IMG/VR virus record: IMGVR_UViG_3300025289_000048
Span: 1 to 44,463 of that record
Origin: a virus
Length of the DNA: 44,463 bases
Reading direction: 5' to 3' (one strand)
Shown here: in pieces, positions 27,666 through 43,114 of the stretch
Layout of the letters: every line of letters starts with the position of its first letter
How positions within the stretch are numbered: the stretch's first letter is position 1
Notes under the pieces: generated by a model
Database searches by the model: none
Seen by the model: the letters and a program-made list of their open reading frames with translations, nothing else
Told to the model about the DNA's origin: nothing
Program-made: the position numbers and the translations under genes

Positions 27666-28088
27666 TTAATGCTCCGGTGCGCTGTAGTGCGCGCTCTCTG
27701 CGCTGTGATGCGCTAAACTGGTTTCGCCAAACCGCTCCCGGTGATTTTCGACAGCCTTCACCGCCTGGTCACCTTGGGCGATATCGACGTGTGGCATGGC
27801 GAGCAGTTTGCGGATCATCGCAACGCTCGCCCGACTCAACGCATGCACGTCGCTTTGCGTTGGGTCCAGCAGCGTCTCCAGTTCCGCCTTCTCGGTGTTC
27901 GCCAGCATGTTGCTCATGCGCCGCCAGTACGGATGCTCGACGAAACTATGCGCCATCGCCGCGACGTCCAGTACGTCGCCGACCGACAGTTTCGCGGGCG
28001 CGGCGCCGTTAGGCGCCGAATCCAGCAGGAAGCGCAGGGCGGCCGCCCGCGCCTCCACCCATATTCTTTTCGCGTCCGGCACCCTCAC
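27666..28088 (-). CDS. Hypothetical head-assembly-region protein, 140 aa
   Basis: The most likely start is GTG at 28088 (GAGG upstream), overlapping the portal stop by 80 bases; GTG at 28082 is an alternative. The product is helical: EARAAALRFLLDSAPNGAAPAKLSVGDVLDVAAMAHSFVEHPYWRRMSNMLANTEKAELETLLDPTQSDVH. No family recognised. Between portal and scaffold, a minor head protein or chaperone is plausible. Confidence 0.55.
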   Translation of the reverse strand: MRVPDAKRIWVEARAAALRFLLDSAPNGAAPAKLSVGDVLDVAAMAHSFVEHPYWRRMSNMLANTEKAELETLLDPTQSDVHALSRASVAMIRKLLAMPHVDIAQGDQAVKAVENHRERFGETSLAHHSAESAHYSAPEH

Positions 28089-29943
28089 CGCCGCCAGCCT
28101 CAGGAGAGCCAGCGCCAGCGAACAGCGCCGCCTGATTCTGCGCGGCCATGAGCATCGCCACTTCTTCCTCGGTTCGGACATAGCGTCTACCGTCCTTCTG
28201 CAAGTAACTTTCCACGGCGTCGCGGAGCAGTTCAGGCACGCGCCAAAACGGGGCGAACGGAGGTGCCGCCGCCGTCTGAAGGAAAAACGCGAGCGCCTGC
28301 TGCTTCTGCGCGTTGTCCACGTCGAAAATGTCGGCCTCGATGTTAATGTCCACATCGTCCTGAAGCATGCTGATGTCGATGGGCACCTGCCAGTCGGTGC
28401 CAACGATGCGCACGAGACGCCCCGGCGGCAGGTGGCGCTGGTAGAGCGCGAACATGCGCGACAGAAGCTGCTTCTTAAATGTCATGTTCTGCCACATCGT
28501 CATGAGGCGGAAGCGTTCGTTGCCGAGTTGAACGCGCCCGGCGAAGGCGGTGGCAGACCGATCCTGCGAGGCCGGAATGGCGCCCTGCTGCGAAGCGGTG
28601 GCGCCGGTGGTACGCTGAATCTGGTCCTGCTTGACAGCCGCCTCTTGATAGGCTTGCGGCAGAATCGGCTTGCGGTCGAGCACGCGGAAGGCCGTCTGCA
28701 CGTCGGCCTGCGTATCGACCCACACCACGCCGCCCGGCTGGAACAGCAACTGGTTGTTGGTGACGGCGTTGCGGTTGGCGATGTATTGCTGCCAGATGCC
28801 GAGCACCACCTCGTCCATGCGGAAGTTCTCGATGCGGTTCAACTGCTCGTTCAGTGGGCCGGCGTAGCGGATGACCGAGTCGCCATAGACGAAGCCGGGA
28901 ATTGGTATCGACTGCACGCCGAAAATCTCCGGCTTCATGTCGGGCGTCGGGTTCGCGCCGTCGCGTATGACTGTTTGCTCGTTGGCGATGACGGTGCGGC
29001 GCCAGTGCGCGCCGTCCTCCGGTTCGTATGGCACGCGCCCGGAGCACGCCAGCAACACCACCTTCGTGCCGTCATACGACTCGTCGGAGGCAATCTTGCT
29101 GAAGCCTTCGGCGCTGGTAATCTCCTCCTCGCCGTGCTGCGAGGCGCCGCCCGAATGAGGCGTGTTGCGGTTCATCGGGTCTTTCGGCAAGTCGCTCGGC
29201 GCCATCATCGCCAGTTGATCGAGATTGCGGTAGAGGCCGAGACGCTGATTCAGGTACTGCAACTTCTCAAGCGTCGTCTCGATCTCCTCGATGAACCACT
29301 CATTGTTGCCCGTAGGATCGGCCCATATACGGAAGTTGCTGACGAAGTCGAGGCGCGGGTCGTCATAGGCGATGAACGGCATCAGTTGCGTCGTCATGCC
29401 GAGCACGTCGCCAGACAGCGGATCGACGACCGGCTGATCGACCGGGCGCTCCATCGGCTCGCGCTCCCACCGCAACTTGAACCAAGAGTGCCCCATAATG
29501 CTGCCGTACTTTGTGCCCATGAGCGCCGTCTGAAACAGGCTCATGCGCTTGGTGCCGCTCAGGAGCAGCGACTTCACCATACGCTCGTAGTCGGCGCATG
29601 GCAGTCCGGGGTGCCCCGGCATCGTGAAGTGCGGGCAGTTTACATCGAACCACTCGGGGCGCGAGAACATGCCAAGAAGAATGCGAGGAAGTATCGTCTC
29701 GATGCTGTTGAACATCTCCGGGACAAATGTATTGCTGCGCCACCAGTCCGCCGGGTCGCTGAATTCGACGAGATGCGCGCGATACAGTTTCCAGTTCTTG
29801 ACCCACTGCGTCTCGTAGGGGTCGCGCATCTGCTGCGCATAGGTCTTGCGCGTCTGCCACACCTCGATGATTTCGTCATCGGTGAGGCCAACGCGGCGCG
29901 GGCCCGGCACGACGTTCAACGCGGCATCTATTCCAGCGGGCAT
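28009..29943 (-). CDS. Portal protein, 644 aa
   Basis: The length and pattern fit the portal of short-tailed phages: an N-terminal RKTYAQQMRDPYETQWVKNWKLYRAHL, then SNTFVPEMFNSIETILPRILLGMFSRPEWFDV, a stem/clip core with QSIPIPGFVYGDSVIRYAGPLNEQLNRIENFRMDEV, and a glycine-rich C-terminus (about 615-644). It would form the dodecameric DNA entry ring. It starts by TGATG overlap with the beta-rich protein upstream and lies two genes after the terminase. Confidence 0.85.
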   Translation of the reverse strand: MPAGIDAALNVVPGPRRVGLTDDEIIEVWQTRKTYAQQMRDPYETQWVKNWKLYRAHLVEFSDPADWWRSNTFVPEMFNSIETILPRILLGMFSRPEWFDVNCPHFTMPGHPGLPCADYERMVKSLLLSGTKRMSLFQTALMGTKYGSIMGHSWFKLRWEREPMERPVDQPVVDPLSGDVLGMTTQLMPFIAYDDPRLDFVSNFRIWADPTGNNEWFIEEIETTLEKLQYLNQRLGLYRNLDQLAMMAPSDLPKDPMNRNTPHSGGASQHGEEEITSAEGFSKIASDESYDGTKVVLLACSGRVPYEPEDGAHWRRTVIANEQTVIRDGANPTPDMKPEIFGVQSIPIPGFVYGDSVIRYAGPLNEQLNRIENFRMDEVVLGIWQQYIANRNAVTNNQLLFQPGGVVWVDTQADVQTAFRVLDRKPILPQAYQEAAVKQDQIQRTTGATASQQGAIPASQDRSATAFAGRVQLGNERFRLMTMWQNMTFKKQLLSRMFALYQRHLPPGRLVRIVGTDWQVPIDISMLQDDVDINIEADIFDVDNAQKQQALAFFLQTAAAPPFAPFWRVPELLRDAVESYLQKDGRRYVRTEEEVAMLMAAQNQAALFAGAGSPEAGGGEGAGREKNMGGGAGGRPALPAGFGA

Positions 29944-30947
29944 CAGGGCACCAGCCTATAGGCAATGCGCACCGTCCACAGCACGTTGGCGCCGGGCGCG
30001 GGAAATGCGAATACGGTCGGCGTGGAGGGTCGGTCGCTCAGTATCGGGTTTCTCGTTGTCCTCAGATCGATGTCGCGGCGCGTGCCGCCCGCGACTATGG
30101 TGTTGCCGACGGCCCACGACATATCGCCAAGGTTAAGCGTTGAGATGTATAAGACGCTGGTGCCGGAGATGCCGGTGGCACCGCAAGCGCGCTTCGCCTC
30201 GATGTGCGTGATGGCGTGGCGCCTGCCGCGAACCGCCGGCAGGGTGACTGTCAGAATCGTGTTGGCGCTACCAGTGCCCTGCTCGACGAGTTCGGTGACG
30301 CGGCTTCCGTGATTGTAATAGGAGAACGCATCCGGCATAAACAGCAAATCCTGGCTGAATTCGATCCACGGGTTGGCGACGGCGGTATCGACTTCGTTCA
30401 CGGCGAGGTCGATGGCAGTGCCGCGCCCGAGGCTGATGGTGCCAGTATACGAAGCAACATCGACATTTGCGGCGCGGTATCCGGCCTCAACCACCAGAAC
30501 GTCGCCCTCTTGAATGTCGGTCGAGGTGGCGGCGGTCGAGGCAGGAAAGTTGCGGTTGGTGAGCGTCGTCAAGACGAATTCCGTGGCGCCGACATTATCG
30601 AGAAGCGTGCCGCGCGAAGTGCCGCCGTCGCCGCTGAACGCCTTCACTACGATATGCCCGAAGTCATTAGCGGCGATGTTGCTTTCGCTGCACCGAATCT
30701 GGCCACGTATGGTACCGGAGATGGTTTGCGCCGCCAACGGCGGACTGATCGACTGTATCAATAGAACATCCCAGTTGTTTGTGGCATTCGTCTCAGCGTC
30801 TGCAAATGTGACTTCGGCCGCAAGGCTGCCATTTGAGACAGGCGAAAGCAGCCGACGCAACGCCGCGCTGTTCTGATCCCAAACGGCATCAAACGCGGGC
30901 GTGATCGTTGGACCGCCAACCGGCTCGTAGTAGAAGCGCGTCGCCAC
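29943..30947 (-). CDS. Beta-rich virion protein, 334 aa, C-terminal domain shared with its neighbour
   Basis: The GTG start directly follows the stop of the previous gene. Residues about 225-334 align with the next gene's product: VTLPAVRGRRHAITHIEAKRACGATGISGTSVLYISTLNLGDMSWAVGN against VAAVPGKRHAITNILIMRAAGAAVTGSATLSITTTNLPDSMAWAVGN, with YLVP-like ends in both. The N-terminal two thirds are a different beta-rich region. Probably a decoration or spike protein; its place between terminase and portal is unusual. Confidence 0.6.
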   Translation of the reverse strand: MATRFYYEPVGGPTITPAFDAVWDQNSAALRRLLSPVSNGSLAAEVTFADAETNATNNWDVLLIQSISPPLAAQTISGTIRGQIRCSESNIAANDFGHIVVKAFSGDGGTSRGTLLDNVGATEFVLTTLTNRNFPASTAATSTDIQEGDVLVVEAGYRAANVDVASYTGTISLGRGTAIDLAVNEVDTAVANPWIEFSQDLLFMPDAFSYYNHGSRVTELVEQGTGSANTILTVTLPAVRGRRHAITHIEAKRACGATGISGTSVLYISTLNLGDMSWAVGNTIVAGGTRRDIDLRTTRNPILSDRPSTPTVFAFPAPGANVLWTVRIAYRLVP

Positions 30948-31340
30948 TTAGAGTTCCGGCACCAGATAGTAGTTAACCTGCCCCGTCCACACGACGCTGG
31001 TGCCGGCGCCGTCGGCATCCGGCATCACAATCGTTGTCGCTGTATTCGCAACGTTTGAAATAAGCGGCGGATTGTAGGAGACGTTCACGTCAATCTGCGT
31101 GCCTCCCGCCGCCATCAGGTTTCCCACCGCCCACGCCATCGAGTCGGGCAGATTCGTGGTGGTAATACTGAGCGTCGCGCTGCCAGTCACAGCCGCGCCC
31201 GCCGCTCGCATGATCAAAATGTTGGTGATGGCATGCCGCTTGCCCGGAACGGCCGCCACCGTAAGGGTCACGGCGCCACCGGCGCTCGACGTGGCCTGCT
31301 CGGTCGCAACAAACTGGTTCGGATCTACGATCAACGCCAT
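30948..31340 (-). CDS. Beta-rich virion protein, single domain paralogue of the 29943 gene, 130 aa
   Basis: The ATG overlaps the terminase stop (TAATG). MALIVDPNQFVATEQATSSAGGAVTLTVAAVPGKRHAIT is followed by alternating beta patterns and ends VVWTGQVNYYLVPEL. It is nearly just the domain that ends the neighbouring 334-residue protein, suggesting duplication. A small capsid-decorating or spike-associated role is inferred. Confidence 0.6.
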   Translation of the reverse strand: MALIVDPNQFVATEQATSSAGGAVTLTVAAVPGKRHAITNILIMRAAGAAVTGSATLSITTTNLPDSMAWAVGNLMAAGGTQIDVNVSYNPPLISNVANTATTIVMPDADGAGTSVVWTGQVNYYLVPEL

Positions 31341-40885: not shown

Positions 40886-41055
40886 TGCCGACGAATGAGC
40901 CGGCGAAGTGCCCAAGGTGCCAAGCCGCCGCTGAGAAGTCGCGCCTCGCCACGCTAATCGACGCGGCGAACTTCTTCGACATGCTTGTGGTGCGCGACAA
41001 ACTGTTCACCGGCGGGCAGGTGGCGGAGAGGCTGCGGGAGATAGCGGAGGAATGA
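40885..41055 (+). CDS. Small CxxC protein, 56 aa
   Basis: MPTNEPAKCPRCQAAAEKSRLATLIDAANFFDMLVVRDKLFTGGQVAERLREIAEE has one CPRC pair and a helical body. TGATG overlap start. Its ribosome site region GGAGGA lies just before the next start. Function unknown. Confidence 0.55.
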   Translation: MPTNEPAKCPRCQAAAEKSRLATLIDAANFFDMLVVRDKLFTGGQVAERLREIAEE

Positions 41056-42359
41056 ATGGCCTGGCTCTATGTGCCGGGGTTGGCGGACTCGAACTTGGAC
41101 TCCGGCTCGCCGTCGGAGACGCCTACCGCACCGTGGGTTACGTTGAGCGGGAAGCCTTCGCAGCGGCCGTTCTCGTGGCGCGGATGGAGGACGAGGCGCT
41201 GGATCGAGCGCCTATATGGGACGATGTTGCGACCTTCGATGGCGCAGCGTGGCGCGGAGTCGTGGATATCGTCTCTGCGGGATACCCGTGCCAACCGTTC
41301 AGCGTCGCAGGACAGCGGCGCGGAGCAGGAGACGAGCGGCACCTCTGGCCCCACATCGCTCGCATCATCCGCGAGTGCGAACCCGTACAAGTGTTCTTGG
41401 AGAACGTCGGCGGACACCTCCGGCTTGGCTTTCGGGAAGTTGCAGAGGAGTTACGAGGAATGGGCTACGACGTTGCGGCGGGTTTGTTTACGGCGGAGGA
41501 GGTTGGTGCGCCGCACCGAAGAGAGCGATTATTTGCGCTGGCCCGCAAGTTGTGCCACCGACTGGAAGAACTCAATGCCGTTGCATCGAATTGGCGGGAG
41601 GCTTCTGGCACACGAAGCGAGACTCTGGCCGAGCGTCCGAGTGGGCGTTCACGGCGAACCGAGTGCGGGGGCACGGCATCCGAGGATTCAGGATTGGGTG
41701 ACGCCGCAGCAGCACGACGGAATGGCTGGCCCGACGCCGCCGAGGCGCGTAGGTCGCTACGGCACGAAGCACGGCGGGAGGGACTTGGTGGATCAGGCGC
41801 AGACTTGGCTAACACCGAACGTCCCGAACGGCGGTCGCAGCGTGCCGGAAGCGACGGTACTGGCGAAAGGACAGACGAAGACCGGCAAACGCACAGTTGG
41901 TCTGGAATCTCAGACGCGAGTTTGGGCAACGCCGACGCAACGCGACTGGAAGGACGGCGGAGACCCATCGGTGAACGTACCGACGAACTCCTTGCTTGGC
42001 CGCCGGGCCCCGCGCAGCATGACGAATGGACCGGAATCCTCGCCCATTGGCCGCATTTGCAGCCAGCCATCAGCATCGAAGAAGCAGAACGGGCCGGACT
42101 CAGGATACCAACTAGGTTCGCGTCTCGTTGCGCGGAGACTCAACCCCCTGTTCGTCGAGTGGCTGATGGGCCTTCCAATCGGGTGGACCGACTCCGCGCC
42201 TGTGGCAACGGCGTCGTTCCAATCGTGGCTGCATACGCATACCGAACTCTTATGGAGGCTTTGCGCCAAGATTGGCCTGCGGGAGATGGCGGAGGAGGAG
42301 GCTTGACAACCGCACACGAAGCACCTATATTGCTGGCGCGACGATGGAGGATGCGATGA
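41052..42359 (+). CDS. DNA cytosine-C5 methyltransferase, 435 aa
   Basis: ALCAGVGGLELGL (5-17) is motif I, SAGYPCQPFSVAG (75-87) is motif IV with the catalytic Cys80, VFLENVGG (114-121) motif VI, APHRRERLFALA (153-164) motif VIII, and DRLRACGNGVVPIVAAYA (about 379-396) motifs IX-X. It should methylate cytosine in a specific site, with the 165-375 region as target recognition. ATG shares a GGAGGA site with the ATG at 41056 of the overlapping frame. It ends in an ATGA overlap with the AAA gene. Confidence 0.92.
   Translation: MNGLALCAGVGGLELGLRLAVGDAYRTVGYVEREAFAAAVLVARMEDEALDRAPIWDDVATFDGAAWRGVVDIVSAGYPCQPFSVAGQRRGAGDERHLWPHIARIIRECEPVQVFLENVGGHLRLGFREVAEELRGMGYDVAAGLFTAEEVGAPHRRERLFALARKLCHRLEELNAVASNWREASGTRSETLAERPSGRSRRTECGGTASEDSGLGDAAAARRNGWPDAAEARRSLRHEARREGLGGSGADLANTERPERRSQRAGSDGTGERTDEDRQTHSWSGISDASLGNADATRLEGRRRPIGERTDELLAWPPGPAQHDEWTGILAHWPHLQPAISIEEAERAGLRIPTRFASRCAETQPPVRRVADGPSNRVDRLRACGNGVVPIVAAYAYRTLMEALRQDWPAGDGGGGGLTTAHEAPILLARRWRMR
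41056..42306 (+). CDS. Overlapping +1-frame protein inside the cytosine methyltransferase gene, 416 aa
   Basis: This frame is open for 416 codons and starts four bases after the methyltransferase ATG. The first half is simply the shifted reading of the methyltransferase and may be passive. The second half has motifs that I know from phage methyltransferase-associated sequences: DWVTP (214), WLTPNVPNGGR (251-261), WATPTQRDWKDGGD (290-303) and RLNPLFVEWLMGLPIGWTD (361-379). Whether the frame is translated alone or by frameshift is unknown. Confidence 0.55.
   Translation: MAWLYVPGLADSNLDSGSPSETPTAPWVTLSGKPSQRPFSWRGWRTRRWIERLYGTMLRPSMAQRGAESWISSLRDTRANRSASQDSGAEQETSGTSGPTSLASSASANPYKCSWRTSADTSGLAFGKLQRSYEEWATTLRRVCLRRRRLVRRTEESDYLRWPASCATDWKNSMPLHRIGGRLLAHEARLWPSVRVGVHGEPSAGARHPRIQDWVTPQQHDGMAGPTPPRRVGRYGTKHGGRDLVDQAQTWLTPNVPNGGRSVPEATVLAKGQTKTGKRTVGLESQTRVWATPTQRDWKDGGDPSVNVPTNSLLGRRAPRSMTNGPESSPIGRICSQPSASKKQNGPDSGYQLGSRLVARRLNPLFVEWLMGLPIGWTDSAPVATASFQSWLHTHTELLWRLCAKIGLREMAEEEA
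42303..42331 (+). promoter_or_regulatory. Consensus-like promoter for the replication-side operon
   Basis: TTGACA (42303-42308), 17 bases and TATATT (42326-42331), inside the end of the methyltransferase gene and exactly overlapping the stop of the +1 frame. RNA would start near 42338, followed by GGAGG at 42345-42349 and the ATG at 42356. Confidence 0.75.
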
Positions 42360-43114
42360 GCGGAACGATATTTCAGATCGACGGGCCGGCGGGTTGCGGC
42401 AAATCGACCGTGCTATGCGGGATGCCAGAGCCGCGTGCGCTGCTTGACACCGATGTCGACGGCGCGCGATGGTTGCGCCAGCACTTCGCCTTCTACGAGA
42501 CGACGCGCAGCATGCTCGACGCACGGCGCGTACTATCCGTCTGGGCCGACAACAAGGAGATTGCAAGCGTCGCGGTAGATGTCTGGGCCTACTTCTGGCA
42601 GACGGTCGCGCAGCAGGTGATGGACGACGACGCGCGGAAACGCGAGTTTGCCACAAGCAACATGTATAAGGCGTGGGGGCCGGCGAAGATGGCTGTGCGG
42701 AGGCTTTACGACCCGCTGCTGCGGGCGAAGCGCGCCGGGAAGCACATCTGTCTCACCGCGCACACAAAGGAGGCGACGGAGCAACGCGATGACAAGACGG
42801 TGGTGAAATTGGGTTTGCGCGCCGATACTGAGGCGATGCTGAACGACATTCTCGACGTGCACCTGCGGATGTATATCGACTTCAAGAAGGACACGCGCTG
42901 GTTCGAGACGGTAAAGTGCCGGCCGCAACAGGACTTCAAGCCGCTATTGCCCGCCCGCATTGATGTGCCGCTCTACGAATCCCACCTCATGTACCAGCGC
43001 GTGCTTGCACTCATTGGTGAGGCCCCGGAGTCGCTCGCCGCCGGCGACGCCCAGGCCGAGGACGAAGCGGCGGTAACGGCAATGGCCGATGCGGCCAAAG
43101 GAGCCAAGCGATGA
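42356..43114 (+). CDS. AAA ATPase (AAA_24 type), 252 aa
   Basis: IDGPAGCGKSTVL (8-20) is Walker A; ALLDTDVDG follows strand 2. A Walker B-type hydrophobic strand is ICLTAHTKEA. It resembles the phage ATPase group found beside ssDNA-binding and nuclease genes. The ATG at 42356 is chosen because GGAGG lies at the correct distance; the in-frame ATG at 42344 has none. Probably in DNA replication or recombination. Confidence 0.8.
   Translation: MSGTIFQIDGPAGCGKSTVLCGMPEPRALLDTDVDGARWLRQHFAFYETTRSMLDARRVLSVWADNKEIASVAVDVWAYFWQTVAQQVMDDDARKREFATSNMYKAWGPAKMAVRRLYDPLLRAKRAGKHICLTAHTKEATEQRDDKTVVKLGLRADTEAMLNDILDVHLRMYIDFKKDTRWFETVKCRPQQDFKPLLPARIDVPLYESHLMYQRVLALIGEAPESLAAGDAQAEDEAAVTAMADAAKGAKR

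Follow-up and report, generated by a model that had tools for sequence, protein, structure and literature searches.

The methyltransferase gene at positions 41052-42359 of the window (the whole stretch of 44,463 nucleotides that was analysed, IMG/VR record IMGVR_UViG_3300025289_000048) very probably encodes a two-polypeptide C5-cytosine DNA methyltransferase, whose alpha and beta chains are read in two frames from the same bases. By sequence, both frames are under coding constraint, motif IX of the enzyme lies in frame +1, and there are fused single-chain relatives in which the overlap is gone. The contig is that of a tailed phage, with genes for a portal, a terminase, a tail spike and an internal virion protein, as well as a Sak4-like gene. 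The features of the locus are as follows:

41046..41050, + strand: GGAGG Shine-Dalgarno-like site common to both starts, read by eye
41052..42359, + strand: alpha, frame 0, C5-cytosine DNA methyltransferase of 435 aa, with motifs I-VIII and X and without motif IX
41056..42306, + strand: beta, frame +1, 416 aa, with x-TP repeats and the C5-methyltransferase motif IX; the frame is kept open in relatives
41058..41543, + strand: alpha catalytic half, motifs I to VIII (PC 79-80, ENV 117-119, APHRRERLF 153-161)
41544..42135, + strand: alpha linker from motif VIII to the motif X block; its first part is residues 163-250
41695..41706, + strand: beta x-TP repeat WVTP, residues 214-217
41806..41817, + strand: beta x-TP repeat WLTP, residues 251-254
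41923..41934, + strand: beta x-TP repeat WATP, residues 290-293
42136..42189, + strand: beta motif IX, RLNPLFVEWLMGLPIGWT, residues 361-378, nearly invariant and aligned by hhalign to fused methyltransferases
42180..42266, + strand: alpha motif X, RVDRLRACGNGVVPIVAAYAYRTLMEALR region, residues 377-405, its bases partly common with beta motif IX
42356..43114, + strand: next gene, Sak4-like ssDNA annealing protein (PHROG 124, E=8.9e-12)

Both open reading frames had been described in a sequence-only reading of this DNA, together with W-x-TP at +1 residues 214, 251 and 290 and NPLFVEWLMGLPIGWTD at beta residues 363-379, and all were found at these coordinates. The same reading gave both ATGs one ribosome site, in agreement with the single GGAGG seen before them, with a spacer of 1 nt to alpha's ATG and of 5 nt to beta's. 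At the far end of the gene, the ATG of the Sak4-like gene overlaps the alpha stop (ATGA).

The frame-0 product matches PHROG 363 (E=2.6e-58) and PHROG 116, and carries the motifs by which C5-methyltransferases are recognized, namely the AdoMet-binding motif I, the PC of motif IV, the ENV of motif VI, and motif VIII. In the alignment of its relatives, G9, P79, C80, E117, N118, and R159 are invariant or nearly so. Its match to Pfam DNA_methylase (E=1.5e-30) covers residues 2-192 only, corresponding to positions 2-189 of the 324 in the profile. Frame 0 had been credited at the outset with all C5-methyltransferase motifs, which proved incorrect, as motif IX is absent there and is located in frame +1. 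A further claim, that a frame-0 "motif IX-X" stretch shares its bases with a "VEWLMG-GWT" stretch of frame +1, holds in that some bases are shared, but the frame-0 stretch is motif X only, and VEWLMG-GWT is motif IX.

A motif IX HMM found its match in frame +1 in 71 of 80 viral loci selected by frame 0, and in frame 0 in none of the 80; across four gene sets, which frame carries motif IX depends on the set. A motif X HMM matched frame 0 and never +1. The nearly invariant block of the +1 alignment, LNPLFVEWLMGWPxGWT, is motif IX of C5-methyltransferases. When the +1 profile was compared with M.HhaI, using a sequence checked against the PDB, the sole alignment was of RRLNPLFVEWLMGLPIGWT to TRKLHPRECARVMGYPDSYK (residues 270-290), which is in the right place and statistically weak. 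The +1 family found no credible match when searched by sequence against Pfam and the PDB. The +1 product does match PHROG 1008 (E=5.6e-21), and PHROGs 1008, 27243, and 26627 are matched by 66, 65, and 64, respectively, of 66 +1 proteins. This indicates that beta has already been gathered as a protein family, although these entries, the first labeled "DNA methyltransferase" and the other two of unknown function, make no mention of being the shifted frame of a methyltransferase gene. The phrog_1008 profile follows frame +1 along most of its length, but its C-terminal end (294-322) resembles the frame-0 motif X, as if some members join both frames.

Fused relatives in actinophages provide a matched control. 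In Mycobacterium phage Martik gp71 and its relatives, the catalytic half, x-TP repeats, motif IX, and motif X lie in one frame; fused enzymes of this kind show L-x-TP repeats, then FPEWMMGWPAGWV, then motif X, and Martik gp71 aligns with Pfam DNA_methylase end to end (residues 1-396, profile 1-317). Homologues with the C-terminal half attached to the catalytic half, proposed earlier as something to look for, therefore exist. A profile of the 66 +1 proteins aligns with the x-TP and motif IX region of Martik gp71 (219-370) with an hhalign probability of 97.9 and E=3e-13. The fused enzymes are thus homologous to alpha plus beta in their catalytic half, x-TP stretch, and motifs IX and X, but they are single chains in a single frame, and their +1 frame is not preserved open. 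Of 31 actinophage loci, 25 have their motif IX in frame 0, and these contain 163 +1 stops against 179.6+/-9.1 expected. Across these sets, an open second frame goes with a motif IX that must be supplied by +1, and is not maintained in loci whose frame 0 carries the motif. Since the +1 motif is the very motif IX that frame 0 is missing, the "two proteins" become, on this reading, two subunits of one enzyme.

The +1 profile also aligns to Gordonia phage JKSyngboy gp4 at the motif IX block. In JKSyngboy gp4 (L213:601-1665) and in a second locus, L241, motif IX is in frame 0 and the x-TP repeats are still in +1; in L213 the +1 frame is open for 262 codons (p=0.01). These two loci may be intermediate between the split and fused forms.

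Stop avoidance in frame +1 was judged against synonymous-codon shuffling of frame 0, a null model that preserves the frame-0 protein and codon usage. The 416-codon +1 open stretch of this gene was reached in 0 of 1000 shuffles (mean 163, max 376), and this, with the match to PHROG 1008, upholds the assertion of the sequence-only reading that the second frame goes beyond chance. A first set of 80 loci was obtained from a viral-contig search with the +1 protein. Nearly all of these conserve both frames with the relative register unchanged; they contain 79 +1 stops, mostly terminal, against 347+/-12 expected, and 207 W-x-TP motifs where frame-0 shuffles predict 25+/-4. Genes flanking these loci on the same contigs show no depletion (806 +1 stops vs 804+/-16 expected); in 17 other genes of the window it is mild (193 vs 229+/-8). 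Mid-gene indels in two loci (L031 and L048) shift both C-terminal parts together, such that their mutual register is kept and the N-terminal halves are out of register.

Because the first set was chosen by +1 similarity, a second set of 80 was fetched with a frame-0 profile, although its independence is incomplete: dual relatives had gone into the making of that profile, and the two sets have a few contigs in common. Of these 80 viral relatives (GC 0.43-0.72), 79 have a +1 frame that is open for 90% or more of the gene's length. The 71 loci with motif IX in +1 contain 0 stops in 19,273 codons against 245.8+/-12.0 expected, the opposite of the frequent +1 stops in homologues that had been named beforehand as speaking against a second protein. 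Divided into four segments, two before motif VIII and two after with the ends excluded, the second set shows 0, 0, 2, and 1 +1 stops against 77, 81, 55, and 48 expected. Loci from bacterial genomes fetched with the +1 profile carry motif IX in +1 in 74 of 79 cases, with 40 stops against 278+/-12. In the reverse test, in which the +1 codons were shuffled, frame-0 stops were expected in every segment and 0 were observed.

The position of the +1 start relative to the frame-0 start is -2 in 29 loci (ATGTGG), +4 in 16 (ATGAATGG), and -5 in 10, and of 61 +1 starts in relatives, 45 have a Shine-Dalgarno-like match ahead of them, compared with 19% of random positions. Pairwise dN/dS of frame +1 in the second half is 0.72 (0.65-0.81), compared with 1.01 (0.94-1.06) in the fused set. 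The first-half values are nearly equal in the relatives and the fused controls (0.69 vs 0.74), so the evidence for translation in that half comes only from openness, start codons, and a few positions, among them beta residues L54, S74, and R148, which are conserved well beyond shuffles. The comparison of dN/dS per frame suggested by the sequence-only reading is thus telling in the second half and uninformative in the first. W-T-P and LNPxFVEWLMGxPxGW are likewise conserved beyond the level that frame 0 imposes, as judged by shuffles. Taken together, the whole-length stop avoidance, the conserved starts preceded by Shine-Dalgarno-like sites, and the second-half dN/dS support the original suggestion that two proteins are made.

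The two frames are not constrained to the same extent along the gene. Frame-0 dN/dS in the catalytic half is 0.30 among relatives. Alpha residues 163-250 are stop-free (0 vs 73 +/- 8 expected), and their excess frame-0 identity is 0.016 compared with 0.020 in the third-frame control, which is to say that this stretch has no conservation beyond that imposed by frame +1. With alpha lacking constraint of its own here and the second half of beta constrained, the proteins appear to divide the work along the gene.

These results bear on three other accounts of the second frame. One treats frame +1 as a side effect of GC-rich codon usage and frame-0 protein conservation, and it draws on a GC content of 0.63, on the long shifted open reading frames common in the window, and on the fact that +1 translation similarity follows partly from frame-0 similarity. 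However, shuffled genes with an unchanged frame-0 protein and codon usage miss the observed result by about 20 standard deviations (genes within each set are related, and such deviations are not independent probabilities), frame +1 is also open in all 11 of the second-set loci with GC below 0.5, and neither flanking genes nor fused methyltransferases show such stop depletion, leaving this account with almost no credibility. A chance open reading frame from GC bias, as a candidate in its own right, was ruled out by the synonymous shuffles, by the genes on either side of the loci, and by the fused enzymes. A programmed frameshift close to motif VIII, joining the catalytic half to the +1 half as an alternative C-terminus, has a counterpart in the actinophage proteins that fuse a catalytic half to the x-TP and motif IX architecture. 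Yet the +1 frame is open across the whole catalytic half (0 stops vs 158 expected in the second set), more than a shift in mid-gene would call for, the +1 start codons with their Shine-Dalgarno-like sites are conserved, and the product would be without motif X unless a second shift led back. The same openness and the same need for a shift back to reach motif X count against the variant raised in the sequence-only reading, in which one catalytic half acquires two alternative C-terminal halves. A frameshift is thus very improbable, and the stop avoidance in the catalytic half together with the conserved +1 starts points to a second protein.

It is likewise very unlikely that two proteins are made and that beta is not a methyltransferase subunit, having instead an unrelated role such as anti-restriction, with its likeness to motif IX a relic. 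The mostly low confidence at which beta is modeled and the low direct score of the +1 profile against M.HhaI would fit such a role. In the dual relatives, however, alpha is without motif IX, whereas the fused relatives carry motif IX in cis, and only the fused relatives lose the overlap, which favors the two-subunit enzyme. As to the models themselves, AlphaFold gave beta alone a mean pLDDT of 56, which is low confidence, and a Foldseek comparison of this model with viral structures gave no match. For a fused relative, the catalytic half, motif IX block, and motif X were predicted to be folded, mostly with pLDDT 85-95, and the model matches M.HhaI in the PDB. The x-TP stretch of the same model is unfolded (residues 203-300 below 50), so that a recognition-domain label for it is without structural support.

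The proposed two-subunit enzyme resembles M.EcoHK31I (YGGCCR), the biochemically established precedent for motif IX on a separate polypeptide, in which the large subunit bears motifs I-VIII and X as well as the predicted recognition domain, and motif IX is on the smaller polypeptide (PMC3404938). Another natural two-polypeptide C5-methyltransferase, M.AquI, is split in the variable region and carries both IX and X on its small subunit (PMC3404938). The likeness to M.EcoHK31I lies in the described motif layout, with I-VIII and X on alpha and IX on the second polypeptide; unlike in M.AquI, motifs IX and X are here on different chains, and the locus is not of that type. The small polypeptide of M.EcoHK31I is reportedly (Lee, Kam and Shaw, in 1995) read from another frame within the gene of the large subunit, a feature that the present locus shows as well. 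Beta here differs from its counterpart, which is short (176 aa), in being almost alpha-sized (416 vs 435 aa), in starting at alpha's own start, and in carrying x-TP repeats. The same arrangement of alpha and a +1 beta is found in N15 gene 58, epsilon15 p22, K1G ORF31 with ORF30 ("Mte8-like protein"), and BASEL Bas70_0036. In this group, motif IX reads LNPxxxRWLMGxPxxW in +1 and a Shine-Dalgarno-like site stands before the beta ATG, as in N15, epsilon15, and K1G, where beta has its own such site and ATG inside alpha. The group differs in that beta starts 88-277 nt inside alpha and is hence shorter, and among its records only those of the K1 type show both frames, with nothing said about function. 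In N15, a laboratory phage like Bas70, alpha has 331 aa and beta 214 aa, counted from the ATG at 44823 of NC_001901.

In the proposed mechanism, one mRNA would yield both alpha and beta, with beta starting four bases downstream and sharing the ribosome-binding site. Alpha would provide AdoMet binding and catalysis (motifs I-VIII), a linker with little conservation, and motif X, while the first half of beta would run under the catalytic domain and its second half would consist of the x-TP repeats and motif IX. We infer that the two chains are expressed and assemble into one active enzyme, to which beta would supply motif IX and probably some of the contacts that recognize a DNA target site, for which the x-TP region may act as a recognition domain. 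Phage methyltransferases usually protect phage DNA from host restriction or mark it, and this one presumably serves such protection. The chances are about even that obligate two-subunit enzymes of this kind make up a large part of the C5-methyltransferases of phages, with catalytic and DNA-recognition (x-TP repeat array plus motif IX) subunits encoded by nearly the whole length of the same DNA and with specificity evolving where the other frame tolerates change.

At least 424 confirmed relatives were found among viral contigs. The overlap is present in phages of E. coli, Salmonella, Klebsiella, Acidovorax, Paenibacillus, and Synechococcus, and in many bacterial genomes, presumably as prophages; some 300-400 codons of it are conserved among phages and prophages of Proteobacteria, Firmicutes, and cyanobacteria. 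A description of this overlap was not found in the literature searched. Its kind is known from M.EcoHK31I, and what is new is its extent, with a beta of nearly alpha length, almost complete overlap, x-TP repeats, and occurrence in hundreds of viral contigs. Extensive overlap between two conserved genes on one strand is considered rare in dsDNA phages and bacteria, and if the two-subunit reading is true, this would be among the longest and most widely conserved in dsDNA phages, with a built-in control in the fused relatives whose second frame loses constraint. Annotators pick either frame, and the K1G record annotates both; Synechococcus phage Ssp-JY39, Acidovorax phage Alfacinha1, and Salmonella phage W5_chr3 have records in which +1 is annotated without the catalytic frame. 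Many phage "DNA methyltransferase" annotations would thus cover one half of an enzyme, and some of them give the wrong frame; a clone of the annotated frame alone may yield an inactive protein.

Very long antisense open reading frames, as are usual in GC-rich coding DNA, also occur elsewhere in the window: one of 721 aa (27796-29961, + strand) lies opposite the portal gene (28009-29943, - strand), and one of 537 aa (31343-32956, + strand) lies opposite the terminase gene (31340-33073, - strand).
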